From assembly GCF_001037495.1 (NCBI RefSeq), contig NZ_KQ089822.1, positions 2,281,403-2,345,402 of the forward strand: a stretch of DNA of 64,000 bases, written 5' to 3'. This stretch comes from Citrobacter sp. MGH106 (lineage in GTDB: Bacteria; Pseudomonadota; Gammaproteobacteria; Enterobacterales; Enterobacteriaceae). The notes under the pieces were generated by a model that saw only the letters and a list, made by a program, of their open reading frames with translations, made no database searches and was not told where the DNA came from. The translations under genes were made by a program, and so were the position numbers. This document shows, in pieces, positions 61,350 through 63,393 of this stretch. How positions within the stretch are numbered: position 1 is the first letter of the stretch; every line of letters begins with the position of its first letter.

Positions 61350-61376
61350 ATGCTGGAGAATGTAATCATCCGATAA
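61350..61376 (+). CDS. toiL: Leader peptide ORF of the topAI operon (toiL-like)
   Basis: An eight-codon open frame MLENVIIR with a GAGG ribosome site six bases upstream, 113 bases before topAI. In E. coli the topAI operon is controlled by the translated leader toiL: ribosome stalling by translation-targeting antibiotics exposes topAI and prevents Rho-dependent termination. The position here, and a hairpin that begins at its stop codon, fit that model. The identity with E. coli toiL at sequence level is recalled only in outline. Confidence 0.65.
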   Translation: MLENVIIR

Positions 61377-61410
61377 TCAGCTTCCCGACCTTTTCAGGCC
61401 GGACTGATTA
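61374..61410 (+). promoter_or_regulatory. Leader hairpin starting at the toiL stop codon
   Basis: TAATCAG (61374-61380), which includes the stop codon TAA, pairs with CTGATTA (61404-61410); within it CCG/CGG and CCT/AGG add a second short stem. A ribosome terminating or stalling on the leader would disrupt it. Confidence 0.6.
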
Positions 61411-61488
61411 TCAATGCGCCGAAATTGTATGCGGACACCGCTGTGTGTTTGCACGTTTTGCACATGATGATTAAACAGGTTTTCCAGT

Positions 61489-61746
61489 ATGAATTTATCC
61501 CGTCAGGAACAACGTACCTTACACATTCTCGCCAAAGGTGGGCGTATTGCGCACGTCCGTGATTCGTCAGGCCGCGTTACCTCTGTTGAATGCTACAGTC
61601 GCGAAGGACTTTTGCTCGCAGACTGTACGCTTGCCGTCTTCAAAAAACTCAAAACAAAAAAACTGATTAAATCCGTCAATGGTCAGCCCTACCGCATTAA
61701 TACCACCGGGCTGAACAATGTTCGCGCCCAGTCCGATAACCGTTAA
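61489..61746 (+). CDS. topAI: TopAI (YjhX), topoisomerase I inhibitor toxin
   Basis: An 85-residue protein almost identical to E. coli YjhX/TopAI ([20 protein letters not shown], then [24 protein letters not shown]). In E. coli it binds and inhibits DNA topoisomerase I, and the adjacent GNAT protein YjhQ relieves toxicity. Here no yjhQ follows; the next gene, 7 bases away, codes for a methyltransferase. Expression is probably set by the leader peptide upstream. Confidence 0.9.
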
Positions 61747-61753
61747 GGAGAGG

Positions 61754-62647
61754 ATGATGGATATCGATAGCATTATTTTTACCGCGGGTCACATACAGCT
61801 GTCACCGGATGAAGACAAAATCCCCTGGGACGAACCCGCTTTTAGCCAGCGTATGCTGGAAAATCATTTGTCGCAGGAACATGACTGGGCAAGCCGCAGA
61901 CTGACCGTAATTGAACAACAGATAGCGTGGATTGCCCGCCAGTTACCTGATGGGGCACGCATTCTTGATCTCGGCTGCGGCCCTGGTTTTTATACCCGCC
62001 TGTTAGCGGAGCGCGGTTTTAGCTGCACAGGAGTGGACTTTTCACCGGCATCCATCCAATGGGCATGCCAGCAGGCGCAAATCTCCGGTCTGAATATTGA
62101 ATACATCCAACAGGATATCCGAACATACAGCCCGGATGATCCGTTCGATTTCATCATGATGACCTTTGGGGAACTGAACGTATTCAGCGCATCAGACACT
62201 TGCTACCTCATCAGCAACTGTGGGCGATGGCTGGTACCAGGTGGCAGGATGCTCATTGAGGTTCATACCTACGATGAGGTTAAACGTCAGGGTATGGCGC
62301 CTGCGAACTGGCAGCGTTGTCCACAGGGCTTGTTCCTTGCTGTTCCTCATCTGTTGTTGACCGAAAACAGTTGGGATGAAGAGGCGCAAATCAGTTCAAC
62401 ACGGTTCTGGGCAATAGAGGCGAATGGTCGAGCTACCCGGTTCGGCAGTCAAATGAAGGCCTGGCATGGTGATGAATATACCAGCCTGCTCGCTAACGCG
62501 GGCCTTAGCATAAAACAGTGCCCGGACAGTGCAGAGTGGCCGGTCAGCGAGACGTTTGCTGGCAAGCTATTTGCTCTGCTGGCTGAAAAAGCTAACCCCT
62601 GTGAACAAAACCCGCTGAATACGCCATCGATAAAAGGAATTAACTAA
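61754..62647 (+). CDS. SAM-dependent methyltransferase in the position of yjhQ
   Basis: A class I methyltransferase of about 297 aa. Motif I is ILDLGCGPGFYTRLLAERGF (about residues 70-90), followed by the acidic VDFSPASI and motif IV-like FDFIMMTFGELNVFS. It has a preceding AAGGAG and one base overlap with yjhP (TAATG), so it is part of the same operon. It is not similar to YjhP outside the SAM-binding core and not to YjhQ, which is a GNAT acetyltransferase. Two adjacent ATGs are possible starts. Substrate unknown; it might be a replacement antitoxin. Confidence 0.85.
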   Translation: MMDIDSIIFTAGHIQLSPDEDKIPWDEPAFSQRMLENHLSQEHDWASRRLTVIEQQIAWIARQLPDGARILDLGCGPGFYTRLLAERGFSCTGVDFSPASIQWACQQAQISGLNIEYIQQDIRTYSPDDPFDFIMMTFGELNVFSASDTCYLISNCGRWLVPGGRMLIEVHTYDEVKRQGMAPANWQRCPQGLFLAVPHLLLTENSWDEEAQISSTRFWAIEANGRATRFGSQMKAWHGDEYTSLLANAGLSIKQCPDSAEWPVSETFAGKLFALLAEKANPCEQNPLNTPSIKGIN

Positions 62648-63393
62648 TGGATATCCCACGTATTTTTACCATTAGCGAAAGTGAACACCGCATTCATAAC
62701 CCGTTCACACCAGAAAAGTATGCCACACTGGGCCACATGTTACGTATGAAGCCGGGTACGAGTATTCTCGATCTCGGCAGCGGTTCGGGTGAGATGCTCT
62801 GCACCTGGGCGCGCGATTATGGTATTACCGGCGTCGGCATTGACATGAGTCCCCTCTTCACCGCGCAGGCAAAACGACGTGCAGATGAACTCGGCGTCAG
62901 CGAACGAGTCCATTTTATTCATAACGACGCGGCCGGTTACGTTGTTGATACAAAATGTGACATAGCGGCCTGCATCGGTGCCACCTGGATTGCAGGTGGC
63001 GTCGTCGGGACGATTAAATTGCTGGCAAAGAGCCTCAGGCCTGGAGGAATTATTCTCATCGGGGAACCGTACTGGCGTCATGTCCCAGCCACGGAGGAGA
63101 TCGCCGAAGCCTGTGGCGTCTCGTCCATGGCTGATTTTCTCCCTCTTCCCGAACTGGTATCGTCTTTTGATGAACAAGGCTATGACGTAGTAGAAATGGT
63201 GCTGGCGGACCAGGATGGTTGGGACAGGTATGAAGCCGCGAAGTGGATGACCATGCGCCGGTGGCTGGAAGAAAACCCAGACGATGACTTTGCGAAAGAC
63301 GTTCGGGCAGAACTGACGATAGCTCCCATACGCCATGTTAGATGGACGAGAGAGTATTTGGGTTGGGGCGTGTTTGCATTAATGCCACGTTAA
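62647..63393 (+). CDS. yjhP: YjhP, putative methyltransferase
   Basis: A 248-residue class I methyltransferase very close to E. coli YjhP. It opens MDIPRIFTISESEHRIHNPF; the SAM motif is SILDLGSGSGEMLCTWARDYG (about 38-58), then GIDMSPLFTAQAKRRADELG. In E. coli it closes the operon topAI-yjhQ-yjhP. Here its ATG overlaps the stop of the new methyltransferase gene by one base. Its target is unknown. Confidence 0.92.
   Translation: MDIPRIFTISESEHRIHNPFTPEKYATLGHMLRMKPGTSILDLGSGSGEMLCTWARDYGITGVGIDMSPLFTAQAKRRADELGVSERVHFIHNDAAGYVVDTKCDIAACIGATWIAGGVVGTIKLLAKSLRPGGIILIGEPYWRHVPATEEIAEACGVSSMADFLPLPELVSSFDEQGYDVVEMVLADQDGWDRYEAAKWMTMRRWLEENPDDDFAKDVRAELTIAPIRHVRWTREYLGWGVFALMPR

Follow-up and report, generated by a model that had tools for sequence, protein, structure and literature searches.

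The closest described relative of the operon treated here is toiL-topAI-yjhQ-yjhP of Escherichia coli K-12 (PMC4666372, PMC12121999). TopAI and YjhQ are counted as a type II toxin-antitoxin system, and toiL is an antibiotic-sensing leader in E. coli which keeps topAI off by default until drug-stalled ribosomes free the topAI ribosome-binding site (PMC12121999). In the same source, induction by ribosome-targeting antibiotics is published for E. coli only, and the first seven residues of ToiL are described as conserved in bacteria with a topAI-yjhQP operon. Here the corresponding operon of Citrobacter sp. MGH106 is analysed, which lies in a stretch of 64,000 nucleotides (contig NZ_KQ089822.1, positions 2,281,403 to 2,345,402; the window) and carries a gene for a second methyltransferase, here called MT2, at the place of yjhQ. 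We favour, with about even confidence, the reading that it is a translation-stress-inducible operon with a constant toiL and topAI and a variable set of one or two genes for S-adenosylmethionine (SAM) methyltransferases.

The operon of Citrobacter sp. MGH106 and its nearest relatives

The following features belong to the locus:

61324..61490, + strand: topAI leader RNA (consensus fold of 35 leaders)
61350..61376, + strand: toiL, an upstream open reading frame (uORF) of 8 codons (MLENVIIR), peptide and position (-139) the same as in K-12
61489..61746, + strand: topAI (yjhX), topoisomerase I inhibitor, 85 amino acids (PF09857, E 2.5e-41, full length)
61757..62647, + strand: MT2, class I SAM-dependent methyltransferase, 296 amino acids (Methyltransf_25, E 6.7e-20; alternative start 61754)
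62647..63393, + strand: yjhP, class I SAM-dependent methyltransferase, 248 amino acids (E. coli YjhP, PDB 1nkv, E 4.4e-140)
63407..63434, + strand: 12-bp hairpin behind the operon, without a T run (-19.2 kcal/mol, z -4.6)

A first-pass annotation, made from the sequence alone, had described topAI, a methyltransferase gene and yjhP as one operon without yjhQ or another GNAT gene. This is borne out by the open reading frames and Pfam matches of the locus, with all three genes head to tail on the + strand. The TAATG at 62645-62649, where MT2 and yjhP overlap by one base, was likewise given correctly. The gap of seven bases between topAI and MT2 holds when counted to the first ATG (61754); relatives use the second ATG, which is more likely the start of MT2, and from there the gap is 10 bases, with GGAG directly behind the topAI stop. 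The annotated stretch began at 61350, which is the start codon of toiL, 139 bases before topAI; toiL itself went unnamed there.

In comparison to K-12, the toiL peptide, its spacing and the pairing of the leader with the ribosome-binding and start region of topAI are the same, yjhP is the last gene in both operons, and TopAI identity is 92-96% for the three loci of the yjhQ type that were compared. K-12 has yjhQ where the window has MT2, so that TopAI (YjhX_toxin) stands here without an adjoining cognate YjhQ. A functional yjhQ elsewhere in the genome had also been considered. No YjhQ orthologue was found in the genome of the strain: the best match (E 9.5e-11) is not regarded as one because its strength equals that of a GNAT of about 38% identity which is widespread in the family. 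A close match to the whole arrangement is Salmonella STM4501-STM4500 (names from a Salmonella Infantis record), in which topAI is followed by MT2 and YjhP and toiL lies at -139, as in the window. However, MT2 and YjhP form one protein of 541 residues there and two overlapping genes here. The arrangement is genuine, recurs and is present also in some E. coli: 2,557 of 5,426 E. coli genomes match the stretch in part, and seven match over at least 80% of a 2.5-kb query including MT2. Literature on topAI, yjhQ, YjhX, yjhP and STM4500/STM4501, in the portions accessible, describes neither MT2 nor variable genes behind topAI.

The hairpin behind the operon is possibly a transcript end or an RNA-stabilising element; a hairpin in matching position with changed bases was seen by eye in one further locus (L177). 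Upstream of the operon, 60490-60951 on the - strand encodes a protein of 153 amino acids with a CaMKII_AD/SnoaL-like domain and, judged by eye, a secretion-signal-like start.

A constant leader and variable genes behind topAI

TopAI exceeded the cut-off in 64 of 295 enterobacterial genomes, hereafter the family, and 63 of these 64 loci were classed (G001, with a truncated topAI, was left out). Directly after topAI comes a methyltransferase in 44 loci, a methyltransferase remnant in three (L090, L100, L124), a GNAT in two (L086, L095) and a yjhQ remnant in one (L083); no partner was detected in 13, among them L072, where the first codons of yjhP are still visible. MT2 comes first in 10 of the 63 loci: eight have yjhP or a remnant of it next (L070, the window's own, L104-L107 and L109-L111, with yjhP frameshifted in L109), and two have MT2 alone (L063, L069). 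Four more have MT2 behind MT3 (L065, L068, L112, L113), a third methyltransferase about 30% identical to YjhP which stands alone behind topAI in 15 loci; L081, L085 and L130 are counted as MT3, their matches having been dropped in later classing by a filter against overlap with the topAI end. A further 15 loci have yjhP directly behind topAI. In 43 of the 44 loci the reading frame of the first methyltransferase is uninterrupted along 90% or more of its reference; in the exception, L107, the aligned stretch extends beyond the stop of the gene at codon 288. An intact yjhQ directly behind topAI was found in none of the 63. That yjhQ is the expected partner of topAI therefore holds for E. coli K-12 and not for the family.

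The part upstream of these genes is constant. In all 70 loci (the 63 of the survey and seven from named records) a toiL-like uORF starting with MLE precedes topAI by 121-141 bases, with 4 to 8 of the 8 residues matching MLENVIIR. In the consensus fold, which includes the leader of the window, the first seven bases of toiL pair with bases up to the first two of the topAI start codon; each of the seven pairs is kept in 34 or 35 of the 35 leaders, and the pairing agrees with that published for E. coli (PMC12121999). A leader pattern allowing up to three mismatches matched 54 of the 295 genomes once each, 53 times at topAI, and missed 11 of the 64 topAI genomes; the reversed pattern gave no match in the 295. 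The match away from a full topAI, in G072 (L177), has toiL, a topAI of 24 codons and an open yjhP 81% identical to that of the window. Since the leader is present in all 70 loci whatever follows topAI, and since its structure is conserved, toiL and topAI are read as the head of the operon; the retention of leader and intact yjhP in G072 while topAI shrank argues for a leader with cargo.

In the favoured reading, drug-stalled ribosomes on toiL would free the topAI ribosome-binding site, as published for E. coli and as the conserved leader suggests here. Translation of topAI would continue into the gene behind it, where the Shine-Dalgarno sequence mostly begins at the topAI stop (GGAG within 12 bases of the topAI end in 36 of the 44 methyltransferase loci). 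MT2 would be cargo which acts with YjhP, and fusion and fold suggest as the most likely target of methylation a small molecule that cells encounter or produce under translation stress. TopAI would need no adjacent antitoxin while the leader holds topAI off.

Changes in the set of genes are seen in the genus of the window, where 14 of 17 genomes have topAI and 16 loci were read. L201 contains topAI, MT2, yjhQ, a yjhP remnant and a dienelactone hydrolase gene; L214 is a damaged topAI-MT2-yjhQ. L202 has topAI-yjhQ with a yjhP remnant, and the second locus of the same genome, L203, has topAI-yjhP. L200 is of the type topAI-MT2-yjhP, L205-L209, L212 and L213 are of the type topAI-yjhP, L210 and L211 hold yjhP remnants, and L204 and L215 have no cargo, the latter with only a topAI fragment. 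The idea that the methyltransferase had replaced yjhQ does not fit L201 and L214, in which both share an operon. There the bases before yjhQ repeat the 3' end of topAI with the adjoining ribosome-binding site, which suggests a scar from MT2 joining an operon that already held yjhQ. A tree of 30 YjhP sequences groups the yjhQ-type copies of E. coli with MT2-type copies (clade support 100/100). Replacement of MT2 by YjhQ in Escherichia would fit this tree, but was rejected because the scar points the other way; judged from these sequences, gain and loss of cargo went in both directions. A supposed MT2 scar between yjhQ and yjhP of K-12 proved to be merely the yjhP ribosome-binding region. An MT2-yjhQ stretch at 80% coverage was found in none of the 5,426 E. 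coli genomes. A dienelactone hydrolase gene also lies behind the operon in L013, a Salmonella plasmid, and is 79% identical to that of L201.

YjhQ itself can live without topAI. At E up to 1e-8 it matched 183 of the 295 genomes, nearly all matches listed being 33-43% identical; the best, in G070 (6.3e-83, 72%) and G048 (1.3e-58, about 55-57%), are both away from topAI, and these relatives (L178, L179) adjoin unrelated genes.

Among 30 topAI loci read outside the family, six have a YjhQ-like GNAT behind topAI by BLAST and a seventh, L167, by eye; MT2, MT3 or yjhP directly behind topAI occurs in none of the 30. Both the leader and the linkage of topAI to a GNAT thus look old and the methyltransferases like an enterobacterial addition, a pattern which favours the wider idea of the first-pass annotation that methyltransferases arrived at a site once occupied by a GNAT. 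Six of the 30 loci (L139, L140, L145, L146, L162, L168) also have MLE uORFs (MLELV, MLEIV and similar), and L154 and L157 have MLNLSETR/MLSLSQTR; the uORFs outside the family lie 129-151 bases before topAI. toiL may, from these peptides, be far older than the enterobacteria.

The methyltransferases and the weighing of explanations

MT2 exceeds the cut-off of the Methyltransf profile (72 bits, cut-off 27), and its SAM-binding motif LDLGCGPG has nearly or fully invariant residues in 22 relatives, by which it is classed as an intact class I SAM methyltransferase. No NCBIfam model was over its cut-off among the 25 of 45 matches listed. PADLOC gave as sole match for MT2 and YjhP a stretch of mad2, which was read as a generic methyltransferase match. 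In a predicted structure (predicted local distance difference test, pLDDT, 86.8) the best among the 50 fold matches listed are the small-molecule methyltransferases CcbJ, NmbA and TylM1, alike in fold but just 13-24% identical. From this fold MT2 and YjhP are probably small-molecule methyltransferases.

MT2 and YjhP appear to work as a pair. In L106, L110 and the Salmonella Infantis record (L185) no stop separates the two frames, and the in-frame fusion occurs also in five of the six E. coli MT2 loci examined (seven were found), the sixth, L009, having an early stop. In L012 and L180-L183, all E. coli, annotation treats the MT2 portion of a 545-codon open MT2-YjhP frame as an incomplete pseudogene without C-terminus. 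Of the earlier suggestion that both methyltransferases act on a target tied to TopAI, it is the joint action that gains from these fusions.

The favoured reading rests on methyltransferases in first place in 44 of 63 loci, the MT2-YjhP fusions, the coexistence of MT2 and yjhQ in L201, a TopAI identity which ignores the cargo (see below) and the fold matches of MT2. Several points weigh against it. Knocking out yjhP caused no growth defect (PMC12096079), 13 of the 63 topAI loci have no detectable cargo, and, from the loci outside the family, a GNAT may be the older state of the topAI partner. In addition, MT2 relatives (E up to 1e-30) in 29 genomes lie behind topAI in 14, 2.4 kb upstream in two and elsewhere in 13, and the occurrence of the methyltransferase in unrelated contexts without topAI, which the first-pass annotation had named as evidence against its own idea, is thus found in part. 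One clade (support 98/99) unites the MT2s of the topAI-MT2-(yjhQ)-yjhP type; only one of its members lies in another setting, a plasmid copy (L014) with a broken topAI. In one locus with MT2 away from topAI (L102) the next gene encodes an MFS protein 60% identical to MdtM.

The downstream genes could instead be mostly passengers, with leader and topAI as a recombination anchor and a turnover of cargo without shared role. We consider this unlikely, yet several observations favour it: decayed cargo in L010, L090, L100, L109, L111, L124, L201, L210 and L211, the topAI-end scar before yjhQ in L201 and L214, and the 13 loci without cargo. Furthermore, the median rate of synonymous substitution (dS) in the same eight loci is 0.56 for topAI, 1.33 for MT2 and 1.26 for yjhP, and the low value of topAI suggests either constraint at the RNA level or exchange by recombination. 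However, the same three methyltransferase families recur with open frames in the 44 loci, L177 retained leader and yjhP after the loss of topAI, and the ratio of nonsynonymous to synonymous substitution (dN/dS) is low for MT2 (median 0.126; 28 pairs, 8 loci) and for yjhP. This purifying selection, together with the recurrence behind topAI in the family, makes the MT2 arrangement more than chance.

That MT2 and YjhP methylate rRNA or another RNA and protect translation in the manner of Erm appears quite improbable. The inducers are ribosome-targeting drugs, and the leader logic resembles that of ermC, as the authors of PMC12121999 note; ermC-type genes follow their stall-sensing leaders, while in the window topAI stands between leader and methyltransferases. 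YjhP is not solely responsible for m6A in mRNA (PMC12096079), which speaks against it as lone writer of this mark. The fold matches listed are mostly small-molecule enzymes, and none of the 50 is an RNA methyltransferase by name, although MT2 could still be one. PF00398, which we take to be the rRNA adenine dimethylase profile, was not among the Pfam families of MT2 or YjhP at E up to 0.01, which sets both apart from the ermC type.

It is very improbable that MT2 has succeeded YjhQ as the antitoxin of TopAI and acts by binding or by methylating either TopAI or topoisomerase I: MT2 does occupy the slot of E. coli yjhQ directly behind topAI with the same ribosome-binding site, is under purifying selection and forms one clade, but it coexists with yjhQ in L201, its fusion partner is YjhP and not TopAI, a partner of topAI goes undetected in 13 of 63 loci, E. 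coli VTB96935v (L010) has a topAI annotated as intact although most of its MT2 is deleted and the 13 kb read contain no yjhQ, and TopAI is not specific to its cargo. With a cognate MT2 antitoxin, TopAI would be expected to differ by partner. In 61 loci (58 of the survey, with the window's own as reference and the remnant classes left out, and three of E. coli), its median identity is 86.4% within the MT2 class vs 87.1% to other classes, and overall 89.4% within and 88.2% between classes; identities are ungapped, so that L111 with an indel scores low. The TopAIs of the two GNAT loci stand apart (66-67% to that of the window). By these identities the TopAI sequence does not track the neighbouring gene, and the view that MT2 took over neutralisation is not upheld; an antitoxin role is unlikely on sequence grounds. 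In E. coli SE11, topAI is annotated as intact and yjhQ as frameshifted. The other earlier proposal, that the toxin is tolerated, gains from the 13 partnerless loci and from the resemblance of the leader to that published as keeping topAI off (PMC12121999).

Meaning for the topAI loci of enterobacteria

In L009, L010, L012 and L200 topAI lies among genes for DUF1062, VOC, GNAT and zinc-ribbon proteins, and an MdtM-type transporter is intact in L010 and L012, with its end alone left in L009; this gene set looks like an island for the handling of drugs or xenobiotics.

A PDB sequence search with TopAI gave nothing credible, and the protein is tentatively predicted to be a winged helix, perhaps of the MarR-like kind. 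It is possible, as a tentative extension of the favoured reading, that TopAI is not chiefly a toxin but a small winged-helix cistron in a portable antibiotic-sensing head, with which enterobacteria turn on interchangeable protective methyltransferases including the two-domain MT2-YjhP, and that YjhQ is another cargo gene.

Citations of TopAI-YjhQ as a toxin-antitoxin pair go back to work on E. coli, and the fixed parts across the family loci read are the leader and topAI. Not every topAI locus should therefore be taken as a toxin-antitoxin system, and E. coli annotation labels an open fused methyltransferase as broken. A testable question is raised as to why drugs of at least five ribosome-acting classes induce the operon and whether the methyltransferases protect the cell. 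The usual gene behind topAI in enterobacterial loci is a methyltransferase, against which the TopAI-YjhQ pair of the textbooks appears exceptional.
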